Positions 4,040-23,817 of a stretch of 64,000 bases of DNA are shown here, piece by piece. Origin of the DNA: Nodosilinea sp. P-1105. GTDB lineage: Bacteria; Cyanobacteriota; Cyanobacteriia; Phormidesmidales; Phormidesmidaceae. Below the pieces are notes generated by a model. The model was not told the DNA's origin, did not search any database, and saw only the letters and a program-made list of their open reading frames with translations. Each line of letters opens with the position of its first letter. Position 1 is the first letter of the stretch. The stretch covers positions 62,001 to 126,000 of the forward strand of contig NZ_SMDQ01000001.1 of assembly GCF_012911975.1 (NCBI RefSeq), read 5' to 3'. The position numbers and the translations under genes are program-made.

Positions 4040-4906
4040 CTATTCCGAGCCACCGCCATAGCGATCGACTAAAACGCGCAATTCACTGACAAACCGCTGG
4101 CGGATGTCCTCAGGCTCCACAATCACACAATCGGCCCCGTAGCGGCGCACCTCTCGAAAGAACCAGAAGGTACTGGTAATCCGCCGTACGACCCGCCGCA
4201 CTTGCCGTTCAGCGTCCCATTCGTTAACCCGATCCACTTTTGACTTGGTGCGGTAAGCCAAGGCCAGCCTACCCAGCAAGTGCATCTCCACATCCACAAA
4301 TGCCAGCTCTGGCTGCCAAGGCCCATCGATCGGACTAATCACCGCTTCTTCGGGAATGCGGTCTAAGCGCAGGGTCCAGTTGTGCTGAAGCTGAGAGATA
4401 TCTTGGTTGCCGTCAGTTTCGTCGCACCAGCACACCAGGTACTGGCGCTCTTCAATGGCGGCAATTTTGGCGTGGCGCACGGAAAAGCTCCACAGTAGCC
4501 CCGCAGCATCCTGGTAGGTGAGGCGGAAGGGCCGCTGGCGTCGCAAGCAGCGATCGATATCGGCCCGCCAGGGAGGGGCAGGATAGTCGACAAAAGCCTG
4601 AATGTCTTGGCGCAGGGGGTGACTGAGTTCGCTGCGTTCTAAGAGCAGATTCGCGATCGCCAGGGCTTCGGCCCCATAGCCCTGGTCGTGGAGCTGACCC
4701 CGAGCTAGGTTTAGGGCTTTGATGCGCTCTGGACTCCAGTCGTGGTTGACGGCCAGGCGCAGTGTGCCCTGGGCGATCGCTTTGATAAGTTTTGAAACAT
4801 TGGGGCGATCGCCCCAGGTCTGGTCAAAGTCTAGGGCAAGCTGCTCTAGCTGGGCTTTTTCGGCCTCGTCAATCGATAGGGTAATGGAGCGTTTTTGGCG
4901 GGTCAT
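4040..4906 (-). CDS. WYL-domain transcriptional regulator
   Basis: About 288 residues from the ATG at 4906; a TTG at 4921 is the alternative start. The first 70 residues resemble a ribbon-helix-helix or helical DNA-binding segment (KRSITLSIDEAEKAQLEQLA). The rest carries a WYL-type sensor region: RPFRLTYQDAAGLLWSFSVR, the strand with LVCWCDE, a NWTLRLDRI segment, and a C-terminal WCX-like part ending in RFVSELRVLVDRY. WYL regulators often sit beside CRISPR-Cas loci, and one in Synechocystis 6803 (Sll7009) affects a CRISPR array. Being about 1.3 kb upstream of a I-D operon makes this a candidate cas regulator, which is an inference from position. Confidence 0.75.
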   Translation of the reverse strand: MTRQKRSITLSIDEAEKAQLEQLALDFDQTWGDRPNVSKLIKAIAQGTLRLAVNHDWSPERIKALNLARGQLHDQGYGAEALAIANLLLERSELSHPLRQDIQAFVDYPAPPWRADIDRCLRRQRPFRLTYQDAAGLLWSFSVRHAKIAAIEERQYLVCWCDETDGNQDISQLQHNWTLRLDRIPEEAVISPIDGPWQPELAFVDVEMHLLGRLALAYRTKSKVDRVNEWDAERQVRRVVRRITSTFWFFREVRRYGADCVIVEPEDIRQRFVSELRVLVDRYGGGSE

Positions 4907-5010
4907 AGGGAGTCGCGTCAAATTTGTACGGACACTTTGTCATTATTTCTCTGGACACCCCCATGGTAGCTCTGCCACCATGGGGTCATACCAGCAGGTA
5001 CGGATAGGTT

Positions 5011-5268
5011 ATGGAGACAAAAGATAGGGAGGGGCGATCGCCCCTGGGCCGGATTGCCCTGGGCGCTGGTGACAACAAACCAGTCATTCGCGGGCAAACG
5101 GTGTTGGTGGAAGCGGTGCTACGTAAGCTGGCGGATGGGGCGACCTATGAAGCGGTGCTGGCAGAATGGCCGCAGTTGCAGCGGGAGGATATCTTGGCCT
5201 GCCTGGAGTATGCGGCTCGCCTGGTGGTCTACCGGCAACTGCGGGAGTCTGATTTGCCGCCGGACTGA
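5011..5268 (+). CDS. DUF433 family protein
   Basis: An 85-residue protein. The segment KPVIRGQTVLVEAVLRKLAD followed by EVLAEWPQL-like residues and REDILACLEYAAR is the DUF433 signature, a small helical DNA-binding-like fold found in antitoxin-type genes usually paired with a PIN-like (DUF5615) toxin. No PIN toxin gene follows; the next ORF is an unrelated 63-residue protein. It is therefore either an orphan antitoxin-like regulator or the remnant of a pair. It begins about 100 bp from the divergent WYL regulator. Confidence 0.75.
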   Translation: METKDREGRSPLGRIALGAGDNKPVIRGQTVLVEAVLRKLADGATYEAVLAEWPQLQREDILACLEYAARLVVYRQLRESDLPPD

Positions 5269-5382
5269 GGTGGGTTTGCAACAGCAGGTTACACCTTGTA
5301 CCGGAGCATTCTGTTTTGTGTCGCTTTGCTTAAGGTTGCAGGGTTTGTCTTTTATATCGGGAGTAATGCAAGGGGAAACGTA

Positions 5383-5574
5383 ATGACCATGACAGAAAGG
5401 CTGGCACAGGTGCTAGGAGATGGCCAGTGGCATTCCACCAGGGAGTTGGTGGAATTGGTGGGCCATCGGTTTTCGGCAGTGCTGCACCGAGCTAAGCAAA
5501 AAGGATGGCAGGTAGAAAAGCGACGGGCAGATAAGCAGATGTTTGAGTATCGGTTGGTCAACTACCAGTCATAG
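5383..5574 (+). CDS. Small winged-helix-like protein
   Basis: A 63-residue protein starting at the ATG at 5383; upstream residues in frame are hydrophobic and lie in the 5' flank. The pattern LGDGQWHSTRELVELVGHR, then SAVLHRAKQKGWQVEKR and a FEYRL strand, looks like a compact winged-helix domain: a Trp-His helix entry, a recognition helix and a wing. Short proteins of this type occur in cyanobacteria as unnamed conserved ORFs. It lies between the DUF433 gene and the degenerate CRISPR-like repeats preceding the cas operon, so it could be a local regulator, but nothing in the sequence proves it. Confidence 0.6.
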   Translation: MTMTERLAQVLGDGQWHSTRELVELVGHRFSAVLHRAKQKGWQVEKRRADKQMFEYRLVNYQS

Positions 5575-5640
5575 GGGGCTAGGAGGAATGAGCTTATGCT
5601 TGCGAAAGGTGGACAAAGACCAAAGCCAGGGCATTCCATG

Positions 5641-5730
5641 GCTTTCAATCCCTAAGAGGGTTATTGGCTAGACAAGAGACTCTAAGTAACGTGGCACTTA
5701 TTTCAATCCCTAAGCAGGGTTTAGAATCCG
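5641..5730. repeat. Two decayed CRISPR-like repeat copies before the cas operon
   Basis: TTTCAATCCCTAAGAGGG begins at 5643 and TTTCAATCCCTAAGCAGGG at 5701. Both resemble the reverse complement of the 3' half of the repeat in the main array, which reads CCCTCTCAGGGATTGAAAC forward. The copies are 58 bp apart, shorter than the 72-bp unit of the main array. They look like relics of an opposite-oriented array. The rest of 5575-5909 holds nothing else that I can identify. Confidence 0.5.
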
Positions 5731-5909
5731 CTCAGAGCCTAAGCTACAGTCTATCTCACATTCAAGATCAAAATTTCTGGTGTAATTTACCTGCCACTTG
5801 ACGTATTTGTGTTGCTAGTATGGAGGTGCAGACTTAAGGCATCCTCGGGGCTCTGCGTAGGCATACCGCCTAGATCCTGTAGGCATGCCCTATATAGGGG
5901 AAAGGTCTT

Positions 5910-6098
5910 ATGGATTACTGGAGCAACAAGAACAAGCGACTGGCCACATACCGAGAAATGCGCGAGCAATGCGAGCGAGAGCTAGCTCAGCTAGATCGAC
6001 TCATTCGGGAAGAAGAATATGAGCCATTCCCAGATGGAGAAGGAAATCTGATTCCTTGGATGGACTACCTAGAAAAGGCCGTAGGTGAAGAGGAATAG
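5910..6098 (+). CDS. Small acidic protein preceding cas10d
   Basis: A 62-residue acidic protein with a predicted amphipathic helix (KRLATYREMREQCERELAQL) followed by a short Pro-containing tail. I do not recognise the family. It ends 68 bp before cas10d on the same strand, so it may share the cas promoter. Codon use looks normal. It could be a small accessory of the I-D locus, or the leftover of another gene. Being a short uncharacterised ORF, its reality rests on position and an intact frame only. Confidence 0.45.
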   Translation: MDYWSNKNKRLATYREMREQCERELAQLDRLIREEEYEPFPDGEGNLIPWMDYLEKAVGEEE

Positions 6099-6166
6099 GC
6101 GAATCAATCCGCTTTGAGCTGTAATTTCATCTTTCATACTATCCCCTGTGGAGGCGGGTTTGAAAA

Positions 6167-8866
6167 ATGAGTTTAAGAATTCTCGGTCGATATCAACTAC
6201 CAAAAACGATAGATGAGCAGTATTTTTGCAAAGTTAGACCGGAGATATATAAAAATCATGCTGGTCATGCTCAACATGGATCTCGCCAAGGACGAAGCTT
6301 AGCTGAGCATCTTGATTCAGCTTGTCAGTTTGTTCTCACCGTCAGCAAGCTTGCTAACGTACCTGACGATAAACGATCGCTCATCCTTGCTGCAACTGCG
6401 GTTCATGATCTCAACAAGCTAGATCCAAGAGAGAGAAATGTAAAAACCTTAGCCCGCGATCGCGAATTTCTCAAAGCACAGCTTGAAAGAGCTGGCGTAG
6501 CTGACTGGGTAAAAACTGACGAAGATTTAGAGCTGGTGCGCCGCCTGATTGAACGTCACTCCGGGCACAACGCCAGTGATGGCATGCGCTTTCTGCCGGA
6601 AGATCCAAATATCAAGCGCTGGGCGGCAATGCTCATCGGGGGCGACCTATACGACTTAGGCATTCCTGAAGAGCAGCGTATTCGCAAGGTTGAAACTGAA
6701 CTAACAGTAGTCCTCCAAAAAGATACTTACTTTTTTAAGGTGCAGTTAGCAGAAGACCGAGGCTACCTAACGGCTCTACTCTTGGCGGCTTGTGAAGAGG
6801 TTCTTCATGAGCGGGGGCTGGCGACTTTATCTGTCGATCCAGATGGGCAGCTTTTCATTGGAGAGCACTTTCCTGAAGAAGATTTGACCCTGGCGATTGC
6901 CCAAAAGTGGTCTCGAAAAATCAACCAGGTTTTCAGCGGCAATGTTGAACAATTGGTCAAGGCCAGCAAAGACGGTATCAAGGTTGACCCGCAAGCCGTA
7001 CAGCAAAATCCTGAGGCTGCGATCGAGCAGGTCGATGCGCTGTTGGTTAAAAAATTTAGTGGCTATAAGGCCGATAAGATTACCCAGGATGTTCAGAAGT
7101 ACAGCGGTGAAGCTGGAGCAACAGCCGTGGCAGCGGCAGCGGAACTGGGCTTGTTACCCATTTCCAACGCTGAAGATTTTGCGGTTTCAGAAGGGCTCAA
7201 AGCCTCTTACCTCAGCTATCGCGAAGCAGCACTTAATCCTAAGGATGCCTGGGATCGTATTGCCGAACAAGTCGAGTTAACCCCTGACCAACGAACGGCT
7301 CTGGAGCCTTTTAATGCTCAGTACGGGCGATGTCTGTTTGCTGCCAAAGCAGTGTCCCGTGGACAAGAGGCGATCGCCCCTCTGCTTCGAGATTCCTTCC
7401 AACTGCGGCAAACCGAAGATACCTCAGTGCCTCAGGAGTTAGTGGCGGCGGTTGCCCAGTTGCTCAATTTTGCCCATCCTTCTACCTGGCAGGGTTTTGC
7501 TGAGCTCACCAGCTACATCGAGGCCAGTCCTCGCCTGCGCTGTTCCCTGGGGCCAACGTCAACGGCTCCAGTGGAGGAGTTGATTTCCGCCAAAATGCCC
7601 CCAGAAACAAAGGTGCAGTCGTTTTCAAATCGGCTACCGGGTGGCATGAGTGCAGAACCCAAACGCCGAGGTGATGCACTGTCAGCCCTGGGGTATCAAC
7701 TACTAAGGGTTGGAGCTAATTTCCCAAAAGCCAGCAAGCAGGCTCCGATGTACCTGCACTTTGCTCTACCCAAGGGATCTAGTGTTGAACTCCAACACAT
7801 TTGGAAGCAGTTTCTCCAGCGCACGGCTGAGACGAACGAAGAGGGTACCGTCACCGTTGATGAGCTACAGCTCTATCGAGACCACCAGATCGTCTTCAAA
7901 GCCAACAAAGTCGTTGGCCTTGCCCTACCTAAGCGACCTGAGTTTATGCATTCCACCGTCACCATTCCTGTACTTTGGGGCGATGTGAATAACTCACTGG
8001 CGTTGCTGAAGTCCTTGCGACTAGCCCTTGAGATGGCCCTAGCTTTGGATATTGGGTTCCCCTTTGTGCTCAGTGCCAACCTGGAAATTGAGCCTAGCTG
8101 GGACATTTTTGGTCGGGTAGAGGGCATTCCATCTACCCTCCAACCGCTCTTAGGCCCAGGTCAATACCTCCGGGAAGGCAATCTCTCTGAGCAAGAGCGC
8201 CAGCAGCAAGTGACCGCCGAAGCAGTATTAGATCGTTTGCGATGCCTCGGCCAATTATCAATAGCCGTAGCCAGTCTGCCTAAAAAGGACGACTGCCTGT
8301 ACGACCTCGCTCGGTCTGCTGCTCGCCCCCTAGACCTCTATCACGTCCTCCTGCGCTGGCTATTGCGAGAACAGGATGATCCCAACTTGGAGGCTACCTG
8401 GACTCGAATTCAAGAACCTTTAACCATCCTTTTGGAGAGTTTAATGTCAGAAGAACATGATCGTGTTTCGCGCTACCTCAAGCAGGCAGCTCACATTGCA
8501 GAGGTCGGTAAACTGCGCGGTAGTTCCTTCCGCCGCACGGCCCAAGCCGAACCTTTTTCAGAGTTTATCAAGGCTATCCGTGCCCGGAAGCCTCACATGG
8601 ATTGGGATACGGTTTTTGCTGCTCTAGTGCAGCAATACCACAATCGCCTCGATCGCATTCGAGAGCATGGGGTTGGGGCCACCAAGTACGAGCAAATTTC
8701 TCAGTACTATGACGTCCTCAAAGAACTGTTTGTCGAGGTCTACAACTCTCGCCCCGACAGGCTCTTAAGCGACAGCAAAACGCTGGAAGCCGCCTACCTC
8801 TTTTTCCTTCAGGAAGCCCGAAAAGAACTGAAGGCCCAAACTGAACAACAATCCACCCAAGCTTAG
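6167..8866 (+). CDS. cas10d: Type I-D CRISPR-associated protein Cas10d/Csc3 with HD nuclease domain
   Basis: An 899-residue large subunit of the I-D effector. An HD domain occupies the first 170 residues: H48, the H80-D81 pair in AATAVHDLNKL, the RHSGH segment near 130-134 and D160 in MLIGGDLYDL. In I-D the HD nuclease is carried by Cas10d rather than by Cas3, which fits the HD-less Cas3 encoded here. The middle and C-terminal parts are the divergent palm and helical domains; I see no GGDD polymerase motif. The operon order cas10d-csc2-csc1-cas3 with 12-bp or smaller gaps supports the call. Start is the ATG at 6167. Confidence 0.9.
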   Translation: MSLRILGRYQLPKTIDEQYFCKVRPEIYKNHAGHAQHGSRQGRSLAEHLDSACQFVLTVSKLANVPDDKRSLILAATAVHDLNKLDPRERNVKTLARDREFLKAQLERAGVADWVKTDEDLELVRRLIERHSGHNASDGMRFLPEDPNIKRWAAMLIGGDLYDLGIPEEQRIRKVETELTVVLQKDTYFFKVQLAEDRGYLTALLLAACEEVLHERGLATLSVDPDGQLFIGEHFPEEDLTLAIAQKWSRKINQVFSGNVEQLVKASKDGIKVDPQAVQQNPEAAIEQVDALLVKKFSGYKADKITQDVQKYSGEAGATAVAAAAELGLLPISNAEDFAVSEGLKASYLSYREAALNPKDAWDRIAEQVELTPDQRTALEPFNAQYGRCLFAAKAVSRGQEAIAPLLRDSFQLRQTEDTSVPQELVAAVAQLLNFAHPSTWQGFAELTSYIEASPRLRCSLGPTSTAPVEELISAKMPPETKVQSFSNRLPGGMSAEPKRRGDALSALGYQLLRVGANFPKASKQAPMYLHFALPKGSSVELQHIWKQFLQRTAETNEEGTVTVDELQLYRDHQIVFKANKVVGLALPKRPEFMHSTVTIPVLWGDVNNSLALLKSLRLALEMALALDIGFPFVLSANLEIEPSWDIFGRVEGIPSTLQPLLGPGQYLREGNLSEQERQQQVTAEAVLDRLRCLGQLSIAVASLPKKDDCLYDLARSAARPLDLYHVLLRWLLREQDDPNLEATWTRIQEPLTILLESLMSEEHDRVSRYLKQAAHIAEVGKLRGSSFRRTAQAEPFSEFIKAIRARKPHMDWDTVFAALVQQYHNRLDRIREHGVGATKYEQISQYYDVLKELFVEVYNSRPDRLLSDSKTLEAAYLFFLQEARKELKAQTEQQSTQA

Positions 8867-8877
8867 GAGCAATCACC

Positions 8878-9885
8878 ATGTCTTTTGAAAAACTGCAACC
8901 CTTTCTCGCCACCAGCTACGAAAACTTTCCCAAAGGTCGCACCATTGGTGCCGTGGTGCTGCGAACCACCCAATCAGAAACCATCTTCCGTACCGAGGGT
9001 ACTGGAGAACCCATGTGCAGCGAGTATGTACAAGCGGGCGTAGCAGATACCGATACTATTCCCCGCCTCGTGATGACCAAGCGTAAGCAGATTGCCCCAG
9101 AGCGGCGCAAAGGTCGCGAGTTTTTGCGGGTTCACGAACTCCTGTACCCCGACCCCAAAGGTAATTCCATTTGCTCCCTCAACACCAATGCCCCCTGTGA
9201 GATGTGTGTTGACTGCTTTCTCTACGGCTTTGCCGCTGGTGGCGAAGGAGCACAGAAAAGCCGGGTGTGGACAGAAGATGCCTTTAGCGTATTGCCTTCT
9301 ACGGAACTGATTGGTGATCGCACCATCAATGCCATCTTTGAAACGGGCACGATGCGGGACGAAGAAGGCAAAGCCTCCACTGCCCTCAACACTAGCGAAT
9401 ACATTAAACCAGGTGTTCATTTCCTCGATATTGTCACCTTCAAAGATGTGACAGCCGACGAGTTGCGCTACGCCCTGGGCAACATTTTGCTGACCACCCG
9501 CTATGGTGCTGTCTCCAGCCGCGTTGGCCGCATGGAGAACCAGATTCTTGGCATCTTTGGCGGCATTGCCGAACTTCCCAGTTCCCTGGAAGTAGTGCAG
9601 GGCATCTACGACAAGCTACCCCTGGATAAGCGAGAACACCCCCTCAATACTGGTGCATTAGTTGCAGCCACCCAAGATGTAATTTCCACCTGGACAAATA
9701 AACGAGGTATTTCAGTGCAGCTCTCGGCCACCGAACTAGACGAGTTAATCGCTGACGTAGACCGTCACCTCTCGATCGATGACCAAGCCGCTTTTCTCAA
9801 GCGACTCAACGCATCCTACGAACCCATACGTAAGGTCAAAGCCACCTCCAAGAAAAAAGGCAAGAGCAAAGATCAGGAGGCTTAA
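8878..9885 (+). CDS. csc2: Type I-D effector backbone subunit Csc2 (Cas7d)
   Basis: A 335-residue RAMP-fold protein of the Cas7 family that polymerises along the crRNA. It shows the Csc2 hallmarks: FEKLQPFLATSYENFPKG at the start, FRTEGTGEPMCSEYVQAG near 40, and a Cys cluster NAPCEMCVDCFLYG at residues 107-113 that probably binds zinc. TTRYGAVSSRVGRMEN near 210 is the central RNA-binding strand. It starts 12 bp after the cas10d stop and ends in a Lys-rich tail. Csc1 follows directly with a strong AGGAGG site inside its 3' end. Confidence 0.95.
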   Translation: MSFEKLQPFLATSYENFPKGRTIGAVVLRTTQSETIFRTEGTGEPMCSEYVQAGVADTDTIPRLVMTKRKQIAPERRKGREFLRVHELLYPDPKGNSICSLNTNAPCEMCVDCFLYGFAAGGEGAQKSRVWTEDAFSVLPSTELIGDRTINAIFETGTMRDEEGKASTALNTSEYIKPGVHFLDIVTFKDVTADELRYALGNILLTTRYGAVSSRVGRMENQILGIFGGIAELPSSLEVVQGIYDKLPLDKREHPLNTGALVAATQDVISTWTNKRGISVQLSATELDELIADVDRHLSIDDQAAFLKRLNASYEPIRKVKATSKKKGKSKDQEA

Positions 9886-9888
9886 GTG

Positions 9889-10674
9889 ATGACCCAAGTT
9901 GAGCTAGAGCCTCAAACTACTCCGCTACCCTATCCAACGGCTCAACTAATTGAGCTATGGTGTGCTGAACCTGTCTTTTTTGCCTCCAGAGAGCTATCGG
10001 ACACTTACTATACCGAGGGCACCATCGGAAACTATGCCCTGGCCTATGCTCTCGGATGGGCGCGATCGCCCTATCGCTTACTGGGGGCAGCTACCGGGCG
10101 ACCCACTTATCTCGAAGACCTTACCCCTTTAACAGGCCAGCGCTACATTCTCCCCGCTTGGCCTCTAGACACCTCAGCCTCTTTTCGCTTTGAGCGATTC
10201 AATGCCCTGTCCGACTCCTATTGGTACGCCATGACCAACAACCGGGTAGCTATTGCTAGAGAAGATCTGCCTTTGAAGCGCACTGGTAAAAAGCCCAGCA
10301 CCTTTCGACCCAGCAATTTTCCGCAAACGGGTCGCCTACGGGTGATTGAGCGCGGCAACCGTTTTCAAACCATTGTTTTTGGCAATGGCGATCTGCCTGA
10401 GTACATTCGGGTTGGCAAGTTTATGAGCAAAGTTAGGGTTGAAATTGTGAAAACGTTTAGTGTCACTGCTCTTTCCCCAGGGGAATACAACTGCCATGCC
10501 TACCTCAACTCAGCTGATCTTCCCTCTGGCCTTAGTCTATTGAGTTTTGACCTAATCTCAATTCCGCCCGCCTCGTTGCTTAAAAATCTACGATTTAGCG
10601 GAGCAGCGTGGCAAGTAGGTGACTATACTCTCCCCGCCAACCTAGAATTTTGTGGAGGTCGCAACCATGGATAG
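9889..10674 (+). CDS. csc1: Type I-D effector subunit Csc1 (Cas5d)
   Basis: A 261-residue Cas5-like RAMP protein that caps the 5' handle of the crRNA in I-D Cascade. The N-terminal segment LIELWCAEPVFFASRELSD followed by TEGTIGNYALAYALG is typical of Csc1, and the PSNFPQTGRLRVIERGNRFQ region forms the thumb. ATG at 9889 is preferred over GTG at 9886 because AGGAGG lies at a good distance upstream. Its 3' end overlaps the cas3 start by 8 bp, implying coupled translation. Confidence 0.9.
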   Translation: MTQVELEPQTTPLPYPTAQLIELWCAEPVFFASRELSDTYYTEGTIGNYALAYALGWARSPYRLLGAATGRPTYLEDLTPLTGQRYILPAWPLDTSASFRFERFNALSDSYWYAMTNNRVAIAREDLPLKRTGKKPSTFRPSNFPQTGRLRVIERGNRFQTIVFGNGDLPEYIRVGKFMSKVRVEIVKTFSVTALSPGEYNCHAYLNSADLPSGLSLLSFDLISIPPASLLKNLRFSGAAWQVGDYTLPANLEFCGGRNHG

Positions 10675-12997
10675 CATCAAAATTCAACTTGGACCCCGCA
10701 GCATTGCCACTTGCCCTAACCCTAAACTTCCGAATGAACTGCTAAATGCCTTTGACCATGGCGTTCTCCAACATCAGGCTGAAGTCTATGAAGCAGCCAA
10801 GACTCACGATATTATTCTTGACTTAGCTCCTACAGGTACGGGCAAAACCAAAGCAGGCTTGAGCGTTATTCATCAAAACCGCGATCGCAGTGCTATTTAC
10901 ATTGCCCCTACTAACGCCCTAATTGAGCAACAGACTGAAGCTGCCAAGAAGTTCGTCAGAGCAGTAGGGCTTCCCCATGTGGTCAAGGCTGCATCTGCAC
11001 GACACGTTAAGGAGTGGAGTAATGATCGGGTAGGTCATCGCTCAGGTAAGAAACTCTATAACGTTCTTCGAGAACCCGCCACCATTTTTCCAGAATGTGC
11101 AGGCAAGCCAATTTTGCTAGTAACCAATCCAGATATTTTCTACTACTCGACGTTTTTTGCCTATAACCGACTAGACCGCAGTAATATCGCCAGCGCTTTC
11201 TACAGCAGTTTTGCGACCGTCATCTTTGATGAATTTCACCTCTATGATTCAAAACAGCTCGTTAGTTTGCTATTTTACTTAGCCTTGTCTCATTCATTTG
11301 GCTATTTTCGAGATGATCGCAAAGTCGTTCTTCTAACTGCGACACCTGAAGAGGCTTGTGAAGCAGCACTTGCTACTCTCGCAGAGGCAGGAGCCAAGAT
11401 CTATCGCGTTAATGGTGAGACCCAGACAGACTGTGTCATCCCCTCACAAACGGCTGTCAGCCTAGAAATTCGGAAGCAGCTAGAAAAGAAAGCACTTATT
11501 TTAGAAATAGCTAACGAAGTCTTGACAAGACTCAAGGAAAAACCTGATCAGTTTGGAGCCGTTATTCTAGATTCACTAGATCAAGTCAATCAGTTAAATG
11601 ACCACTTATGTAAATCAGGAATTGAACATTTGCGTGGGCGAATTACAGGTGCTGTTAAATCTCAGCATGAGCGCCATGAGGCAGCACAGAAACAAGTTAT
11701 TCTTGCGACTAGTACAGTAGATGTTGGCTTTAATTTTGAGCGAGACGCTGAATCTGAGCGCCAAAATCTGGATTGGTTGATCTTTTCGACCCGCGATCGC
11801 TTCTCTTTCTGGCAACGAATTGGACGCGTAGGTCGAGTTTTGGGTAAAACACAGACTGATTTGCCATCTGAAGCGATCGCCTACCTTCCAGAAAAAGCCT
11901 GGGAAGAAGGCATCGAAAGCTTAGATTGTGCTGGTGGTCGTGATGCATTGAAACAAAATCTTGAAAACTTAAGCTGTATGAAACGCCCATTTCTAGAAAT
12001 CTACTGGAAATCCGAGGCATTCCTAGAAATCGCTCGTCCACTGCTAGAGCTTGAAAGCGCCCTCTACAATTTAGAAGAAGAGAGGCTGATTCAAGAGCTA
12101 TACGCGACTTTACAGAAGTTATTGGGCGGCTCTCGCTCTTGGAAATATTACAAGCATCGAATGATGCAAATCAATACTGCCGAAGCATTAGCTAAAGCTC
12201 CGCTCCAACCAACAAAACCTGGGCAGTGGTCGTTTATTAAGACCCTCTTTAAGCAGCCAAAGCATATACGCCAAAATTTCATCAAGAAGTTTTTGGATTT
12301 CAACTATCCAGAACAGCTAGAATCACTGAACAGGCAAGAGTTTTCGATAGAAGAGATTGAAAAGGAAATCAAGGATTATGAAGATTCTGCCTCTGAGCTA
12401 AAGGAATTTTCAGTCTTCTGGAAAACCGTTTGGTCACCCCTATTTCGATTCCGAGACGGTTTGTTTGATAGCTTAGTTGTATATGATCCACATAACTTTC
12501 TCTTAGATAACATCGGAGAGACCAATCTTGATCCTTTTCACCTGCTTAGATTCTATGAATTTGTTTCAGACGATTCACGGGTAGAAGTTTCTGCGAGAAC
12601 TGAAGAAACCTATCAACTCAGCTTCACGCTTGATATTGAATCGCTTTCCGATTTTGAAGCTACGAAACTTGGAAAGTTATGGGCGTACCCGAAACTTAAT
12701 GTAAGGCGGACATCTGGTGGAGCTGTCAGACCCACTAAGCTACCTGAACCTTTGGCAAAGGGGTTGAGGGACAACCTCATTCCAGGGGTCATCATCAAAG
12801 AGCACGGTCAAACCAAATGGGCAATTGTCAAACTACGTAAGCAAGGTTTAGAATGCTATCCCATTCATGTCTCCGGTTACGACAGTCCAAGTTCCAAGGA
12901 ATATCTTTTTTTTCCTAGTTTTTCCGGTATTCTCGCGATCGCCGCTGCCGGAGTCGCCTTGCAAAGTCCTGATAATGAAGAATTCTGGGTCGCCTAG
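10667..12997 (+). CDS. cas3: Type I-D Cas3 helicase (Cas3', no HD domain)
   Basis: About 776 residues from the ATG at 10667. Superfamily-2 helicase motifs are clear: Walker A APTGTGKT at 54-61, Walker B DEFH at 188-191 in VIFDEFHLYDSK, LLTATPEE for motif III, and STVDVGFNFERD with FWQRIGRVGRV for motifs V and VI. No HD nuclease domain is present, as expected for subtype I-D, where it resides in Cas10d. The protein unwinds target DNA after Cascade binding. The stop codon is followed after 2 bp by the start of a nucleotidyltransferase gene, so the toxin-antitoxin pair is probably translated from the same message. Confidence 0.9.
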   Translation: MDSIKIQLGPRSIATCPNPKLPNELLNAFDHGVLQHQAEVYEAAKTHDIILDLAPTGTGKTKAGLSVIHQNRDRSAIYIAPTNALIEQQTEAAKKFVRAVGLPHVVKAASARHVKEWSNDRVGHRSGKKLYNVLREPATIFPECAGKPILLVTNPDIFYYSTFFAYNRLDRSNIASAFYSSFATVIFDEFHLYDSKQLVSLLFYLALSHSFGYFRDDRKVVLLTATPEEACEAALATLAEAGAKIYRVNGETQTDCVIPSQTAVSLEIRKQLEKKALILEIANEVLTRLKEKPDQFGAVILDSLDQVNQLNDHLCKSGIEHLRGRITGAVKSQHERHEAAQKQVILATSTVDVGFNFERDAESERQNLDWLIFSTRDRFSFWQRIGRVGRVLGKTQTDLPSEAIAYLPEKAWEEGIESLDCAGGRDALKQNLENLSCMKRPFLEIYWKSEAFLEIARPLLELESALYNLEEERLIQELYATLQKLLGGSRSWKYYKHRMMQINTAEALAKAPLQPTKPGQWSFIKTLFKQPKHIRQNFIKKFLDFNYPEQLESLNRQEFSIEEIEKEIKDYEDSASELKEFSVFWKTVWSPLFRFRDGLFDSLVVYDPHNFLLDNIGETNLDPFHLLRFYEFVSDDSRVEVSARTEETYQLSFTLDIESLSDFEATKLGKLWAYPKLNVRRTSGGAVRPTKLPEPLAKGLRDNLIPGVIIKEHGQTKWAIVKLRKQGLECYPIHVSGYDSPSSKEYLFFPSFSGILAIAAAGVALQSPDNEEFWVA

Positions 12998-12999
12998 TC

Positions 13000-13443
13000 A
13001 TGTCTATTACTCAACCGCTAGAGCAACTTCAAACGTTCAGTCAATGGTCTAGACACCATCCAGGCCTTAGGTTGCTCATCCTCTTTGGCTCCAGGGCCAG
13101 AAGCGACCACGACCCTACAAGTGATTGGGATATTGCTTTTCTGTCAGATTCTAATATCTCCACAAAGCATTCATCATCCTGGTTCCCTGACTTGGAGATA
13201 CTAACCACCTTAAGCGACTTCGCTGGTATCACCCAAGATCGCATTGACCTTGTCGATCTGAGTGTCTGCAACGATATTCTGGCCCATGTCGTTGCCCGCG
13301 ATGGCCAACTTATTTACGAGCGTCATCCCGGTGAATTTGCTCGCTTCCAGCAGCAAGCTCTAAAGACCCCAGACGAACTTCAGCAATTTCGCCAAGCCCA
13401 GCGACAGAAAGTTCTAGATGCTTTAGTAAGGTGGGGAGTATGA
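13000..13443 (+). CDS. mntA: MNT-type nucleotidyltransferase, probable antitoxin MntA
   Basis: A 147-residue minimal nucleotidyltransferase. The catalytic motif GSX10DXD is complete: G30-S31, then D42 and D44 in SDWDIAFLSD. The LFGSRARSDHD strand precedes it. In characterised MntA/HepT pairs this enzyme adds AMP residues to a tyrosine of the HEPN partner and so silences it. The ATG lies 2 bp after the cas3 stop, and its own stop overlaps the HEPN start in an ATGA. It is therefore embedded in the cas interference operon. A few HEPN-MNT pairs act as plain phage-defence modules, so a role independent of CRISPR remains possible. Confidence 0.9.
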   Translation: MSITQPLEQLQTFSQWSRHHPGLRLLILFGSRARSDHDPTSDWDIAFLSDSNISTKHSSSWFPDLEILTTLSDFAGITQDRIDLVDLSVCNDILAHVVARDGQLIYERHPGEFARFQQQALKTPDELQQFRQAQRQKVLDALVRWGV

Positions 13444-13886
13444 CTCAGCTTGACAGAGAGGCGATCGCCCAAAAACTTAGCCGTATGGTCGACCGCCTAG
13501 ATCGGCTCATAGGCTTTGAGGCTGTGACTTTAGAAATCTACCTAGCCAATGAAGACTATCAAGACATTATCGAACGTCAACTTGAGCTACTGATCCAGTC
13601 AGCCGTTGATATCAATAAAACCCTGCTCAAACGAGTAGCAGGTATTCGTCCATCCGAAAGTGCCAATGTCTTGAGCAATTTTGATTCCTTTCTCTTAATG
13701 GGAGCGCACGGTTTCCTACCAACCGAACTATCCGATCAGCTTGCTCCCTCTGGGAGTTTCCGCAATATCCTTGCCCATGAATATGATGACATAGATCCTA
13801 ACCAAGTTTATGCTGCCTTCCAAAAAGCCCTGATCCAGTATCCTCAATATGTGAGAGCCATTCAAACCTATCTTGATACCTTATAA
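13440..13886 (+). CDS. hepT: HEPN ribonuclease toxin, HepT-like (DUF86)
   Basis: A 148-residue helical protein from the ATG at 13440, sharing ATGA with the upstream gene. The HEPN active-site motif RX4HXY is intact: R108, H113 and Y115 in FRNILAHEYDD. Y115 is the residue that MntA modifies in studied pairs. Helical HEPN pattern QLELLIQSAVDINKTLLKR also fits. HepT cleaves RNA when its partner is lost. The GTG at 13431 would add three residues but the overlapping ATG fits antitoxin-toxin coupling better. No frame damage is visible, so the pair is likely functional. Confidence 0.9.
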   Translation: MTQLDREAIAQKLSRMVDRLDRLIGFEAVTLEIYLANEDYQDIIERQLELLIQSAVDINKTLLKRVAGIRPSESANVLSNFDSFLLMGAHGFLPTELSDQLAPSGSFRNILAHEYDDIDPNQVYAAFQKALIQYPQYVRAIQTYLDTL

Positions 13887-13919: not shown

Positions 13920-14531
13920 ATGGAAACTTCTAACTCAAACAAGCCCTGTAACCTTAATAGAAATTTTGACCTAGATGCAGAATCTGCTGACCTTGGGTAT
14001 TCGCTCTCTCAACGAAGACTCAGTCTTTCCGGTTGTCAAGGTGAATTAGAAAAAATCCATCAATTGAGCAACCGTATTAAAGAAGTTCTACCATTTGTTA
14101 GCCTCACTACTGAGAGATCTCGTCGAGAGATTCTGGTTGCCCCTATTGTTACAGAAGTTATCCACTATACCCAAGCACAACTGAGAATTGAGTATTCCCT
14201 TAGAATATCTGGGCAACCCTACCAAGCTATAAATTACTTATTGAGAACGGAAAACCAGATTTTTACCATTCAAACTGTGGAAGAAGATGCAAATAACTGT
14301 GGAATAGAGAAATTGGCTGCTGCAATGACTGCTCTAGATCAATGGAGTCATACCCCCAAACAGTCCACATTGTTAGGGGCTGTCACCACCGGGACTGTCT
14401 GGCGATTTGCTTGCTTTCATCGAGTCAGTAGGCATATCGATCTAGGGCTTGAGAGCTATCTCATTCCCAATGATATTGAACCCCTAATGAGGATTTTAAT
14501 TAATGCGCTCTATCCAGCAGATTACGAATAA
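13920..14531 (+). CDS. PD-(D/E)XK-like protein with catalytic residues lost
   Basis: About 203 residues from the ATG at 13920; a TTG at 13896 is the alternative. It matches, from memory, a cyanobacterial HSDR_N-like nuclease family: SRREILVAPIVTEV, a strand ending in NYLL, then a Q-rich strand, EKLAAAMTALDQW, and LLGAVTTGTVWRF. The family usually carries an Asp in the DYLL position and Glu-x-Lys in the next strand. Here the Asp position is N105 and the next strand reads Q118-T119-V120, so the metal site seems destroyed. It follows hepT by 33 bp on the same strand, suggesting co-transcription. It may serve as a binding partner rather than a nuclease. Confidence 0.6.
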   Translation: METSNSNKPCNLNRNFDLDAESADLGYSLSQRRLSLSGCQGELEKIHQLSNRIKEVLPFVSLTTERSRREILVAPIVTEVIHYTQAQLRIEYSLRISGQPYQAINYLLRTENQIFTIQTVEEDANNCGIEKLAAAMTALDQWSHTPKQSTLLGAVTTGTVWRFACFHRVSRHIDLGLESYLIPNDIEPLMRILINALYPADYE

Positions 14532-14535
14532 CCTA

Positions 14536-14937
14536 CTAGCCAAACCCCTTACGTTTTGGTTTCCTTTTACCCAGCGACTCCTTCTCCAGTAGTTCCGCTG
14601 CAAAACCCCGCCGATTTTGCAGCATTAGCCTTCGAGTCCGCTGCCGCTGATACTCCAACACCTCCGCCGCCAACTCATGCTCCGGGTCAAACACCACATG
14701 GGTCAACGACGTCGAGTAGACCGTTTTTGTCCTATCCCCACTTGGCAGCAAATTCACCATTATGCCGCCCTCATCTCCTAGATACATCACCGTATCGACA
14801 TCCAACCAGGTCGCCGGAGTAATTGACTTATCCTCGATCGCCTTCATCAACTGTTTTCCAGGCCGCACCCGAAACGGCAACGCCGCCTCCAGTTTATTCT
14901 TCAGCGCGATCGCCTGCCCATAGTCATCAATCTGCAT
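14536..14937 (-). CDS. Conserved hypothetical protein, convergent to the nuclease-like gene
   Basis: A 133-residue protein from the ATG at 14937. It begins MQIDDYGQAIALKNKLEAAL, has a central segment with WLDVDTVMYLGDEGGIMVNL, and ends in an Arg/Lys-rich tail (RQRTRRLMLQNRRGF, GKRKPKRKGFG) that could contact nucleic acid. I do not recognise the family. It is on the minus strand, with its stop 4 bp from the stop of the preceding gene, so it separates the cas interference operon from cas6. Confidence 0.6.
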   Translation of the reverse strand: MQIDDYGQAIALKNKLEAALPFRVRPGKQLMKAIEDKSITPATWLDVDTVMYLGDEGGIMVNLLPSGDRTKTVYSTSLTHVVFDPEHELAAEVLEYQRQRTRRLMLQNRRGFAAELLEKESLGKRKPKRKGFG

Positions 14938-15007
14938 CCCAACCCTCAATAGAAAGTTAATAGCGCTGAGTTTTTAGCCTTGAATTAAAGCCCACAGCCG
15001 TCAACTC

Positions 15008-15049: not shown

Positions 15050-15970
15050 ATGCCACACAGCCTCGTCCTCAACCTGCTGCCCGACTCCCCCATTCCCCCC
15101 GGCTTCACCACCGGCAAACACCTCCATGCCCTCTTTCTCAGCCTGGTCAGCTCCGTCGATGCGGCCATGGGTAACCAGCTCCACGCCAACGAAGGCAACA
15201 AATCCTTTACCCTCAGCCCCCTGCAAGTAATTTTGAATTCTAAATTCTCAGTTTTGAATTCAAGCCGGAAATCATCAATTCAACATTCAAAACTCAAAAC
15301 TCAAAACTCAAAATTCCTCCACTGGCACCACCCCCACCCTATCCCCCCCTCTACCCCCTGCTGGTGGCGCATCTCCCTGCTGGACGATCGCCTCTTCAGC
15401 CAGCTCAGCCCCCTCTGGCTCAACCTCAACCCTAACCAACCCTGGCATCTCGGCCCCGCCGACCTGCATATCACCAGCATTCTCGGCACCCCCCAGAGCA
15501 CCCAGCCCTGGGCCAATTTTTGCAACTACCCGCAGCTCTACGACCAGGCGTCTGAGACAGACCGCAAGCTCACCCTCCAGTTCTACACCCCCACCGCCTT
15601 CCGTCAGGGCAAGTATGACTCAGCCATGCCCACCCCTACCAGCGTCTTCAGTAGCCTGCTGCGCCGCTGGAACCATTACAGCAACATCGAATTCTCCCCC
15701 GAGATTATCGACGCGCTCCAACCCAGCTACTTCAACATTCGTACTGAGCTGGCCCAAGACCCCCGTGCCCAGTTTCAACACACCGGGGCCAGGGTCAACC
15801 CCGCCAATCAGTTCATGGGCTGCGTCGGCAAAGTCACTTACCAAATTTTAGGCAACTGCGATCGCGCCACTATCAAGCAACTCAATACCTTAGCCGATTT
15901 TGCGCTCTACGCCGGGGTCGGGAGAAAGACACCAATGGGGATGGGGATGTGTAGGAGGGTGGATGTGTAG
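15050..15970 (+). CDS. cas6: CRISPR pre-crRNA endonuclease Cas6 with an in-frame repeat insertion
   Basis: A 306-residue Cas6. The N-terminal ferredoxin-like fold starts MPHSLVLNLLPDSPIPPG, and the C-terminal glycine-rich loop GVGRKTPMGMGM is the Cas6 signature for RNA binding. Cas6 cuts the pre-crRNA within each repeat to leave an 8-nt 5' handle ATTGAAAC. About residues 60-91 are low-complexity (VILNSKFSVLNSS, KLKTQNSKF) and correspond exactly to an A/T-rich dispersed repeat that has inserted in frame, so the protein is longer than most Cas6 proteins. The last few residues come from the 16-bp tandem repeat that starts at the stop codon. Activity depends on the insertion lying in a loop. Confidence 0.85.
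   Translation: MPHSLVLNLLPDSPIPPGFTTGKHLHALFLSLVSSVDAAMGNQLHANEGNKSFTLSPLQVILNSKFSVLNSSRKSSIQHSKLKTQNSKFLHWHHPHPIPPSTPCWWRISLLDDRLFSQLSPLWLNLNPNQPWHLGPADLHITSILGTPQSTQPWANFCNYPQLYDQASETDRKLTLQFYTPTAFRQGKYDSAMPTPTSVFSSLLRRWNHYSNIEFSPEIIDALQPSYFNIRTELAQDPRAQFQHTGARVNPANQFMGCVGKVTYQILGNCDRATIKQLNTLADFALYAGVGRKTPMGMGMCRRVDV
15226..15318. repeat. A/T-rich dispersed repeat inserted inside cas6
   Basis: A run of units such as AATTCTAAATTCTCAG and CAAAACTCAAAACTCAAAA. The same sequence type occurs at 21574-21625 next to the broken end of the CRISPR array. It keeps the cas6 reading frame open. Confidence 0.75.
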
Positions 15971-18935: not shown

Positions 18936-20915
18936 GCGCCAAACCCCCCCAAACCCTCTCAGGGATTGAAACAATCAAACTCAACCAACGCGCCGCCGCA
19001 GTAGCAGGCGCCAAACCCCCCCAAACCCTCTCAGGGATTGAAACAAGCGTATGCGGGATATTTATTTTCAGCAACACCGCGCCAAACCCCCCCAAACCCT
19101 CTCAGGGATTGAAACGGCAATAGCCCTATGCAGTAGCGCATCTCAGCGATCGCGCCAAACCCCCCCAAACCCTCTCAGGGATTGAAACATGTAAGATTTT
19201 CCGATTTGCGTTATGAGCATAGGCGCCAAACCCCCCCAAACCCTCTCAGGGATTGAAACCGGCGATGTGACCGTTGTCATCTGCAAAACGGCCAAGCGCC
19301 AAACCCCCCCAAACCCTCTCAGGGATTGAAACAAGGTTGGCAGAGTTAGCGGGCATCGACATCGACCGCGCCAAACCCCCCCAAACCCTCTCAGGGATTG
19401 AAACAGTTTAATTTCGCCAAAACGAACATTCCCATTCCGCGCCAAACCCCCCCAAACCCTCTCAGGGATTGAAACAGCCAGTAGTTTGCTGCCGACGATA
19501 CGGATCAACTGCGCCAAACCCCCCCAAACCCTCTCAGGGATTGAAACCGGAATGTACTCGATCGCGCCAGTGACCGGGTTTAGTGCGCCAAACCCCCCCA
19601 AACCCTCTCAGGGATTGAAACTCCAGCAGTATCAAAATCAGGGTCACTGGCATCAAGCGCCAAACCCCCCCAAACCCTCTCAGGGATTGAAACAGTTTGA
19701 ACTATTAACTGATGATCATTTTCTCTCTAGCGCCAAACCCCCCCAAACCCTCTCAGGGATTGAAACAAAACGCCGCTCTACCACAGCCGCCCACAACGCA
19801 GCGCCAAACCCCCCCAAACCCTCTCAGGGATTGAAACCGGTCCCGGTGAAATAAATGTGCTGGTTAGCGATGCGCCAAACCCCCCCAAACCCTCTCAGGG
19901 ATTGAAACTGGGTCGATGGTAAAAACGATGTGGCCTGATTCGCGCCAAACCCCCCCAAACCCTCTCAGGGATTGAAACCTCATTATCAAGCTGTACAAAT
20001 TGATTCCTCTCAAGGCGCCAAACCCCCCCAAACCCTCTCAGGGATTGAAACTAGGCCGTGGGCCAGGACGGTGCCCGTCGGTGATGGCGCCAAACCCCCC
20101 CAAACCCTCTCAGGGATTGAAACCTTGCCAAGCCGTTGCTGTAGCTCCGGTGGTAGCGCGCCAAACCCCCCCAAACCCTCTCAGGGATTGAAACTCCAGA
20201 CTTGACGGCTTTGCTATTTCATTCGGTGCGCTGCGCCAAAACCCCCCAAACCCTCTCAGGGATTGAAACCGGTTGCCAAACATTCCCCTTACGGTGCTTT
20301 TAAGGCGCCAAAACCCCCCAAACCCTCTCAGGGATTGAAACCAAGTAGCTCCTGGCCCTGGGAGTTTCCTTTATGCGCCAAAACCCCCCAAACCCTCTCA
20401 GGGATTGAAACGTTGGGTGATGGGTCGAACGGGGATAGGCAGGATGGCGCCAAACCCCCCCAAACCCTCTCAGGGATTGAAACAAAGGCGTCCGAGGCAG
20501 CCCGTTGCTCCTGCTCAAGCGCCAAACCCCCCCAAACCCTCTCAGGGATTGAAACGGTGTACTCGTCCCCCAGCTCATCCGATCGCAGGAGCGCCAAACC
20601 CCCCCAAACCCTCTCAGGGATTGAAACGAACCAATAGCGTAGGATCTACCGTCATCAACCCTGCGCCAAACCCCCCCAAACCCTCTCAGGGATTGAAACC
20701 CGCCAGCAGAGGGTACCCCGGCATGGGCGTGGGGGCGCCAAACCCCCCCAAACCCTCTCAGGGATTGAAACTTTTCAGTAGTTTCATTGCAATGGCGATC
20801 GCCCTGGCGCCAAACCCCCCCAAACCCTCTCAGGGATTGAAACCAGCACTTATCGCGCTACACGTCTCCCTTCGGATGGCGCCAAACCCCCCCAAACCCT
20901 CTCAGGGATTGAAAC
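18936..20915 (+). CRISPR. CRISPR array, 28 repeats and 27 spacers, type I-D
   Basis: The 37-bp direct repeat begins GCGCCAAACCCCCCC and ends CTCAGGGATTGAAAC. Copies start at 18936, 19008, 19079, 19152, 19223, 19296, 19368, 19439, 19511, 19585, 19657, 19730, 19801, 19872, 19942, 20015, 20087, 20158, 20233, 20305, 20375, 20447, 20519, 20591, 20663, 20735, 20807 and 20879. Spacers are 33-38 bp. The GATTGAAAC 3' end and the cas2-side leader show transcription on the plus strand. The three copies at 20233-20411 carry a C-to-A change at position 9. Spacer 1 ends in a copy of the leader end. Spacer 26 contains a HIP1-like GCGATCGC, a hint of a cyanobacterial or cyanophage source. Confidence 0.98.
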
Positions 20916-21030
20916 TGGATACATAGGCCCCATCGTGAGGCTGAGCGTAGTAAGGTAGATGTGTTGTTTCCACATGCCTAGGGGTGTGCCGGATAGAGGG
21001 GATATCCCTCAGCCCAAACGCAAGAGAGAA

Positions 21031-21352: not shown

Positions 21353-21389
21353 GCGCCAAAACCCTCCAAACCCCCTCAGGGATTGAAAC
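21353..21389 (+). repeat. Degenerate CRISPR repeat beyond the inserted ORF
   Basis: A full-length 37-bp copy with three changes (positions 9, 13 and 22), ending CCCCTCAGGGATTGAAAC. It shows the array formerly extended past 20915. Confidence 0.9.
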
Positions 21390-21573
21390 TTCTGAATATG
21401 AAAGCGCAGTAAGTAGGTAGGCTCAATTACTTTGTAGACGGGTTTCGGCTTCGCTCAACCCTCAAATCCTTACCGGACAAAGGATCTAGCTAATTGAGCG
21501 GAGTCGTTCGCGTGAGCATCTCCCTTCGGGAGAAAATCAGCGGCGGGTGTGACATTTGATTAGCCTCGGCTAC

Positions 21574-21625
21574 TTCAAAACTCAAAATTCAAAACTTAAA
21601 ATTCAAAACTCAAAACTCAAAATCC
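21574..21625. repeat. A/T-rich dispersed repeat near the array end
   Basis: Units AAACTCAAAATTC and AAAACTTAAAATTC, related to the sequence inserted inside cas6 at 15226-15318. The rest of 21390-21573 contains no gene that I can see. Confidence 0.7.
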
Positions 21626-21660
21626 CCCCCCATTCCCCAAACCCTCTCAGGGATTGAAAC
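21626..21660 (+). repeat. Truncated terminal CRISPR repeat abutting ligA
   Basis: The last 26 bases match the repeat exactly (CCCCAAACCCTCT through GGGATTGAAAC); the 5' part is CCCCCCCATT-like and diverged. It stops at the base before the ligA stop codon complement. Confidence 0.85.

Positions 21661-23817
<2,157 letters not shown>

Follow-up and report, generated by a model that had tools for sequence, protein, structure and literature searches.

A type VII MntA/HepT toxin-antitoxin pair in cyanobacterial type I-D CRISPR loci and its predicted control by a CreR-like mini-CRISPR

Structures of the HEPN-MNT toxin-antitoxin pair of Aphanizomenon flos-aquae were reportedly published by Songailiene et al. 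in Mol Cell in 2020. Here we analyze a related pair, mntA and hepT, in 64,000 nucleotides (nt) of DNA from Nodosilinea sp. P-1105 (the window, in whose positions all coordinates are given), where it stands behind cas3 in a type I-D locus of clustered regularly interspaced short palindromic repeats (CRISPR). The passages of the literature cited here describe the Aphanizomenon pair, studied in the 2020 work, as adjoining a type I-D system, trimming four nt off the 3' ends of transfer RNAs (tRNAs) and being silenced by di-AMPylation, and propose it as an ATP sensor; it provides the closest solved relatives of the window pair, with the same motifs and the same type I-D link (PMC11676413). The association of HEPN-MNT with type I-D is already known, and an original prediction for this locus, which called the use of MntA/HepT as a cas-operon component inference, undersells the literature, since the same passages show that the neighbourhood was published in 2020 (PMC11676413). 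The MntA/HepT pair of Shewanella oneidensis also has GSX10DXD and RX4HXY with its acceptor tyrosine; unlike the context in the window, CRISPR is never mentioned in that paper (PMC7641770).

The second element considered is a set of degenerate repeats upstream of the cas genes that resembles CreR, the Cas-regulating mini-CRISPR. The CreR cases tested by Liu et al. (2023, Cell Host Microbe) are said to be of types I-B, I-E and V-A. As outlined in section 9 of PMC12737573, CreR shares with the window degenerate repeats outside the array and a partial match upstream of cas next to a protospacer-adjacent motif (PAM). Unlike the CreR cases, the mini-CRISPRs found here are of type I-D and are often coupled to protein toxin modules. 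CreTA and CrePA resemble the scheme proposed below in that Cascade and an RNA similar to a CRISPR RNA (crRNA) hold down a promoter upstream of a toxin (relevant parts of PMC12737573 and PMC9458426), the toxin of CrePA being the protein KilA-N and its antitoxin an RNA (PMC12737573, same part). The window locus differs from both: its toxin, a HEPN ribonuclease (RNase), is paired with a protein antitoxin of its own and shares a block with the Cascade genes, and with a HEPN toxin and the protein antitoxin MntA it is not a CrePA. Among the matches listed from openly licensed literature, titles and the starts of abstracts gave no MNT-HEPN behind cas3 and no CreR in type I-D, although Liu et al. (2023) may list I-D. 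Relative to the literature searched, the clade-wide extent, the form behind cas3, the company of toxin modules and the CreR-like control are new.

We consider it rather probable, as one joint explanation, that mntA-hepT forms a cyanobacterial clade serving as an exchangeable accessory of type I-D loci, that Cascade represses its own genes and the pair in a CreR-like manner, and that HepT would act as a back-up toxin. In the window the genes run in the order cas10d-csc2-csc1-cas3-mntA-hepT, and a PD-(D/E)XK-like gene comes next on the same strand:

6167..8866, plus strand: cas10d (csc3), type I-D large subunit (PADLOC Cas10_Id, 1475 bits)
8878..9885, plus strand: csc2 (cas7d) (TIGR03157, 322 bits)
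9886..10674, plus strand: csc1 (cas5d) (TIGR03159, 213.5 bits)
10652..12997, plus strand: cas3' helicase (TIGR03158, 309.5 bits)
13000..13443, plus strand: mntA, adenylyltransferase antitoxin, 147 aa (NF047752, 83.3 bits; PDB 7ae2_B, MNT antitoxin, 1e-21)
13440..13886, plus strand: hepT, HEPN RNase toxin, 148 aa (NF047751, 87.5 bits; PDB 7ae9_A, HEPN toxin, 2.9e-28)

The presence together of cas10d, csc2, csc1 and a separate cas3', plus an array, identifies the locus as type I-D; Pfam and NCBIfam searches gave no match for Cas10d. The mntA ATG at 13000 lies 2 nt past the cas3 stop, which ends at 12997, and the mntA TGA overlaps the hepT ATG as ATGA at 13440-13443. The GSX10DXD motif of MntA reads GSRARSDHDPTSDWD, and its G, S, D and D are invariant in an alignment of 24 MntA rows. 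In HepT, RX4HXY reads RNILAHEY (R108, H113 and Y115), with Y115 aligned to Y109 of 7ae9_A. Both proteins score above the curated cut-off of their type VII toxin-antitoxin models, which is 60 bits in each case. Each feature on which the original prediction had relied holds up: the gap of 2 bp, the ATGA overlap, the two intact motifs and a toxin-antitoxin pair abutting cas10d-csc2-csc1-cas3. The closest solved structures of both proteins are those of the HEPN toxin and MNT antitoxin, PDB 7AE2, 7AE6, 7AE8 and 7AE9. We take the last three to stem from the same work as the first. Judged by motifs, family models and structural matches, mntA-hepT is an MntA/HepT type VII toxin-antitoxin pair. In the part of PMC11586414 cited here, 7AE2 is the MNT of A. 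flos-aquae. The 2-nt cas3-mntA junction occurs again in a second genome of the window's family (G215, L087/L227), in which likeness to hepT stops, by eye, after some 25-30 codons. This recurrence, and complete pairs of this type in 20 of 78 I-D loci, show that the arrangement is not accidental.

We asked how far the pair extends across cyanobacterial type I-D loci. A cyanobacterial I-D cas3' scored above cut-off in 71 of the 386 genomes of a phylum sample, and 80 I-D places were read (79 fetched plus the window's own locus), leaving out weaker matches, split second pieces and G119. Locally built hidden Markov models (HMMs) detected mntA in 26 of the 80 and hepT in 24, two of each being weak and unrelated; L077 and L100 carry other MNT/HEPN genes, which match weakly (18-58 bits). 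Among the 78 loci found through cas3 that have cas10d, 25 contain mntA or hepT at more than 100 bits (20 contain both, window counted) and 53 contain neither. Another 31 loci found through HepT bring the set to 109 loci with cas10d, 102 of them distinct; hepT frequencies are taken from the 78 only.

A HepT search model, built from 21 I-D loci and used with a cut-off of E 1e-15 for strong matches, gave 26 such matches in the 386 genomes, 23 in the fetched I-D loci and the rest in G187, G131 and G119. A general HepT model at E 1e-3 matches 68 of the 96 genomes of the class. Thus it is this HepT subfamily that keeps to CRISPR loci and, as the model came from I-D loci, the statement does not extend to HepT at large. 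The best 80 of 228 confirmed loci in a species-wide scan comprise 38 cyanobacterial loci, 32 with I-D genes nearby, and 42 others, none with I-D genes nearby. A plasmid collection yielded 11 matching records, six haloarchaeal and five cyanobacterial; the five cyanobacterial ones, which were inspected, are all in I-D loci (one without effector genes).

A HepT tree of 96 rows was computed by a quick method, with support from the Shimodaira-Hasegawa-like approximate likelihood ratio test (SH-aLRT) only and neither a bootstrap nor an approximately unbiased (AU) test. One branch, with SH-aLRT 98, unites 50 rows that are all cyanobacterial, 42 of them in I-D loci. Two members of this branch outside I-D, L155 and L226, adjoin type I-B operons; both operons have Cas8b and Cas7b, and Cas5b was tested in L155. 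These operons (L155 8600-20361 and L226 8539-19901) also contain a WYL regulator, as though the pair had stayed in place while the effector type was exchanged. In L175 the pair is near a telomere resolvase-like gene, and in L154 and L180 near TPR or NB-ARC genes; in all three, the contig end on one side is no more than about 1.2 kb away from the pair, and cas genes may lie beyond. The local HMMs found no cas gene in L156, L222 and L224. In L191 (344-1224, plus strand), csc2 and csc1 flank a pair that overlaps csc1 by 4 nt and whose HepT falls outside the main branch, suggesting that the pair was recruited a second time. The window genome encodes five other HepT-like proteins, and the four entered in the tree lie far from the window HepT. 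In Synechocystis 6803, whose I-D locus is compact, 13 nt separate cas3 from cas10d, and the pair is absent at this site. Outside type I-D, a chain named Cmr1-MntA in PDB 9z7q, 9z7v and 9z7x suggests that an MntA-like domain is fused to a type III-B protein, on which we found no literature by title among the matches listed.

The placement of the pair is constrained. All 43 distinct loci with hepT at more than 100 bits have the gene on the cas strand, at a few preferred sites, which is not the random placement in related genomes that the original prediction had named as its refuter. Scoring cas genes, WYL and YhcG as neighbours, cas10d comes next after hepT in 35 of the 43 (17 after cas3, 14 after YhcG and 4 after WYL), and in 21 of these 35 hepT runs 8 nt into the start of cas10d. 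The pair lies between cas3 and cas6, as in the window, in 4 of 43 loci, between cas3 and YhcG in 2, before cas3 in 1 and before WYL, at the edge of the scored region, in 1. The commonest site is therefore directly before cas10d; behind cas3 is a minority site. The search of I-D loci for the pair after cas3, which the original prediction had proposed, shows that this form recurs (the window, L144, L145, L166, Leptolyngbya sp. BL0902 (L228) and the hepT-less L087), but most pairs precede cas10d. The Dolichospermum pairs (L163 and L230, from Aphanizomenon's host family) are before cas10d, whereas the window pair is behind cas3.

Other modules keep the pair company. The 78 I-D loci hold DUF433 with the PIN-like DUF5615 in 14, YhcG in 14 and a PD-(D/E)XK gene in 8, and 45 of them carry at least one of DUF433-DUF5615, YhcG, PD-(D/E)XK or mntA/hepT. 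DUF433 with PIN is tabled as a toxin-antitoxin pair in the part of PMC4963859 cited here. In L058 (12200-12880, plus strand), mntA is in frame with an N-terminal DUF433, presumed to be the antitoxin of another toxin-antitoxin type.

Upstream of cas10d, the window contains a mini-CRISPR that the original prediction did not list, with two degenerate repeats spaced 58 nt apart on the minus strand, and a predicted target:

5700..5725, minus strand: psiR1, first degenerate CRISPR repeat, AAACCCTGCTTAGGGATTGAAAT
5665..5699, minus strand: mini-CRISPR spacer (CreR-like guide), seed AAGTGCCA, with a near-identical spacer in Leptolyngbya sp. BL0902
5642..5664, minus strand: psiR2, second degenerate CRISPR repeat, antisense to the cas operon, AACCCTCTTAGGGATTGAAAG against the array repeat AAACCCTCTCAGGGATTGAAAC
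5764..5802, minus strand: predicted Cascade target upstream of cas10d, PAM GTC (5800-5802) and a partly matching protospacer

The psiR2 hairpin CCCT/AGGG folds, with a z of only -0.52 against shuffles, and the whole mini-CRISPR folds no better than shuffles (z 0.28). An Rfam search of 4900-6200 at E up to 1 returned no family; a lone microRNA (miRNA) match fell far under threshold and elsewhere. By a strict pattern, at least one antisense degenerate repeat occurs upstream of cas10d in 48 of the 102 distinct I-D loci, window counted, and in 36 of the 78 loci found through cas3. In cas3-first loci the repeats typically lie about 18 and 83-99 nt past the cas3 stop; some cas10d-first loci have them between WYL and the first gene. 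Across all 109 loci, the gaps from cas3 to the next gene contain 76 repeat matches antisense versus 2 sense; elsewhere the matches are mixed in strand, for example 15 sense inside cas10d. Of the companion modules in the 48 mini-CRISPR loci, 15 DUF433, 6 DUF5615 and 24 YhcG genes lie on the cas strand between the mini-CRISPR and cas10d, and 10 DUF433, 6 DUF5615 and 1 YhcG lie before the mini-CRISPR, with one more DUF433 on the other strand.

To search for targets, the 8 bases after the first repeat were taken as seed, and the same intergenic region was searched for GT, any base, and spacer positions 1-5, 7 and 8. A seed target was found in 37 of the 48 loci, against 34 of 9037 shuffled and 12 of 1772 foreign control seeds (0.4-0.7%). 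When the three bases ahead of the seed were left free, 52 of 56 sites had GTT or GTC, and the type I-D PAM is given as GTN or GTH in the part of PMC10212523 cited here. In 49 of 52 cases, 71-134 nt separate the start of the target from the first repeat. Spacer positions 9 onward took no part in the search. Taking the best site in each of the 37 loci, the match is 0.57-0.97 at positions 9-17 except 12, and low at 6 (0.27), 12 (0.38) and 18 (0.14). Related loci share spacers and the choice of best sites inflates the match, so we recounted, letting a single locus represent each seed and scoring the site found first. On this count a target exists for 21 of the 29 distinct seeds; positions 6, 12 and 18 match at 0.29, 0.24 and 0.19, the rest of 9-17 at 0.48-0.95, and positions 19 and 20 at 0.57 and 0.52. 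The type I seed spans 8-10 nt minus position 6, and in type I-D every sixth base is flipped out (PMC10212523, same part). The dips at 6, 12 and 18 fit this pairing rule and are strong evidence, at the level of sequence, that the mini-CRISPR is a Cascade guide whose target is too short for full pairing. The window target matches the spacer at positions 1-5, 7-8, 10-11, 13 and 15-17, 17 of 35 overall, and BL0902 has a target site of its own, GTT-AAGTGTCAGGTTACTTA. Like CreR elements, the window has degenerate repeats outside the array near cas genes and a PAM-flanked partial spacer match upstream of the cas unit. In the part cited here, the expression section of a type I-D review names protein regulators only (WYL Sll7009 and Csa3).

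We then considered whether the mini-CRISPR covers the pair. By the strict pattern both features occur in 29 distinct loci, and in all of these the best hepT lies on the strand of the cas genes, downstream of the mini-CRISPR; one further mntA copy stands before the mini-CRISPR. The 78 loci found through cas3 divide into 18 with mini-CRISPR and hepT, 18 with the mini-CRISPR alone, 4 with hepT alone and 38 with neither (Fisher p 1e-4, relatedness not removed). The complete genome of BL0902 has nearly the same arrangement as the window, and in BL0902 and Dolichospermum L230 the pair is downstream of mini-CRISPR and target; L163 of Dolichospermum likewise has both a mini-CRISPR and a target.

The pattern of decay bears on whether HepT is a real toxin. 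The pair is intact in 40 of the 102 distinct loci. Five retain an intact mntA with hepT broken or missing (L046, L072, L087, L146 and L174), and none has an intact hepT without mntA: in L066 and L070, where hepT occurs alone, the catalytic R and H are lost, as they are in a third such case, Anabaena sp. 90, which is outside the 102-locus count. Both genes are reduced to pieces in L081, and hepT to a piece in L040; L219, cut by a contig start, and L097 end at the pair and were excluded from the decay count. This one-sided loss is what a real toxin predicts. Eleven apparent mntA remnants proved to be artefacts and were not counted: an N-terminal DUF433, observed in the case of L058, made the L058, L147 and L148 queries match DUF433 genes.

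Co-inheritance was analyzed by Mantel tests. The first gave r 0.21 for HepT-Cas10d (40 loci) and 0.81 for HepT-Cas6 (32 loci), and the same within each gene order. With the outlier L098, which has a divergent Cas10d, removed, HepT-Cas10d rises to 0.80 in 30 cas3-first loci, and an effector swap as a general rule, with the pair ignoring the effector module, was dropped for these loci. A swap stays a weak hint for the 9 cas10d-first loci only, in which HepT distances follow Cas6 (0.84, 8 loci) better than Cas10d (0.21, 9 loci).

Based on these observations of gene content, motifs, order, clade, mini-CRISPR, target and periodic match, we suggest the following mechanism. HepT would act as an RNase, as its Aphanizomenon relative does on tRNA 3' ends, and MntA would keep it off by AMPylating the RX4HXY tyrosine (Y115); this chemistry is taken over from the published relatives. 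A crRNA-like product of the mini-CRISPR, if made, would guide the I-D Cascade to the PAM-flanked, partly matching upstream site and bring about CreR-like autorepression. Cascade thus probably represses the unit that encodes itself and the pair, which is probably transcribed together with the Cascade genes as a single unit. As long as Cascade works, the unit would stay low. Inhibition of Cascade, or its titration by crRNAs, would let the cas genes, mntA and hepT rise together, and if infection also cuts the supply of ATP or MntA, un-AMPylated HepT would stop translation as a back-up for failed immunity. The sign is opposite to that in the original prediction, which had antitoxin fall when the operon is repressed: a Cascade-targeted upstream region implies that loss of Cascade raises both genes.

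Between 5000 and 19000, a scan found 13 promoter-like sites against 10.4 (sd 3.2) in shuffles and 10 terminator-like sites against 14.7. The top promoter match, 12825-12854, is within cas3 upstream of mntA, and the scan neither shows nor excludes an internal promoter ahead of mntA. The genes cas6, cas4 and cas1 lie beyond a minus-strand open reading frame (ORF) of 137 codons (14536-14949), which divides the cas10d-hepT block from cas6, so these genes are probably under a separate promoter.

Several observations weigh against autorepression with a back-up toxin. The mini-CRISPR occurs without hepT in 19 distinct loci, which indicates that it is primarily a Cas regulator and that the pair mostly rides in that unit. 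By the strict pattern, 14 of 43 distinct hepT loci lack a pseudo-repeat (L058, L147 and L148 pass a looser one), and behind cas3 only the window and BL0902 gave pseudo-repeats, L144, L145, L166 and L227 giving none. Two repeats occur together in only 20 of the 48 loci, 11 of the 48 have no target by the search rule, and neither does Anabaena sp. 90, which has two repeats. In the window itself, the 17 of 35 matching positions break at position 9, and the promoter hexamers near the target were read by eye and are absent from the promoter-scan sites. On a plasmid of Pseudanabaena sp. ABRG5-3 (L231, 8556-9895, plus strand), mini-CRISPR and target are between hepT and cas10d, unlike in the other loci that have both features, placing the pair outside the controlled stretch. 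Plasmid pA of Kovacikia minuta (L229, 10587-13378, plus strand) has the pair, cas6, cas4 and cas1 at full length without I-D effector genes, and no repeat near the pair. The decay count, 5 versus 0, is small. Finally, toxin and antitoxin would share a promoter, so derepression need not free the toxin. In Kovacikia, nucleotidyltransferase-like and patatin-like genes, named by eye, are at the effector place between WYL and mntA-hepT-cas6-cas4-cas1.

A broader version of Cascade autorepression is possible, and we put it forward tentatively: cyanobacterial I-D loci would contain an exchangeable toxin slot, filled by MNT-HEPN, DUF433-DUF5615 or YhcG, in a unit that Cascade represses through the antisense mini-CRISPR, and MNT-HEPN would be let out when anti-CRISPRs disable Cascade. 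It is weakened by the Pseudanabaena pair outside the controlled stretch. If it is true, MNT-HEPN would be the type VII counterpart of CreTA and CrePA, and the Aphanizomenon-type pairs of Dolichospermum (L163 and L230) would also be under CRISPR control.

Rather unlikely in our judgement is that the pair is a passenger, a mobile toxin-antitoxin system that settled where a defence locus tolerates and expresses it and that is functionally unconnected with Cascade. Such a passenger fits the housing of DUF433-DUF5615, YhcG and other modules in I-D loci, the five different sites of the pair and its absence from most loci, the position of the Pseudanabaena pair, and the L191 HepT from outside the main branch between csc2 and csc1. 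It fits less well with a single branch that stays with CRISPR loci throughout many cyanobacterial families, I-B operons adjoining two of the 8 members found outside I-D, with the recurrent cas strand and 8-nt overlap with cas10d, or with the HepT-Cas10d distance correlation of 0.80 in the 30 cas3-first loci. Unlikely, too, is a stand-alone ATP sensor as proposed for Aphanizomenon, in which a drop in ATP would free HepT regardless of Cascade and the cas operon would only supply expression; the conserved catalytic residues and the chemistry described for the closest relative and the Shewanella pair agree with it, but it leaves unexplained why the branch keeps to CRISPR loci and why the pair mostly sits behind a Cascade-targeted region. 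An addiction module, the guardian role put forward in the original prediction, in which MntA supply stops on loss or silencing of the operon while HepT persists and makes the cas locus hard to lose, is improbable: an intact two-gene system does abut the operon, the toxin was lost before the antitoxin in five loci and HepT tracks Cas6 better than Cas10d in cas10d-first loci, but 53 of 78 I-D loci have neither gene, the Kovacikia pair without effector genes would protect itself and not Cascade, and fast release after loss is not given for a toxin silenced by covalent modification.

The remaining features of the window locus lie on the plus strand:

about 13920..14531, plus strand: PD-(D/E)XK-like accessory gene 3' of hepT (PADLOC PD_DExK, 45.8 bits)
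15050..15970, plus strand: cas6 (Pfam CRISPR_Cas6_N, 232 bits; TIGR01877, 67.4 bits)
18936..20920, plus strand: CRISPR array, 37-nt repeat with end ATTGAAAC

A Pfam search gave no match for the PD-(D/E)XK-like gene, whose family is present in 9 of the 80 I-D loci, window counted. Degenerate repeats trail the main array at 21353-21394 and 21624-21665, and are 83% and 69% identical to the reference copy. The stretch from the WYL regulator to the mini-CRISPR holds a DUF433 gene (5011-5268, plus strand, 50 bits; the locus gave no DUF5615) and a small gene, winged-helix-like by eye (about 5383-5574, plus strand), whose family occurs in 23 of the 80 I-D loci. An ORF of 62 codons (5910-6098, plus strand) lies between the predicted Cascade target and cas10d.

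The 2020 work explained how the toxin is silenced chemically (PMC11676413, in the passages cited); a Cascade-targeted region before the shared block offers a direct, testable reason for the CRISPR neighbourhood. The near-identical arrangement in BL0902 allows a test that is independent of the window's own organism. If Cascade autorepression with a back-up toxin is true, RNA-guided autorepression of Cas would extend to type I-D, and a block of Cascade by anti-CRISPRs would raise a tRNA-cleaving toxin, so that phages carrying anti-CRISPRs would pay a price in cyanobacteria.

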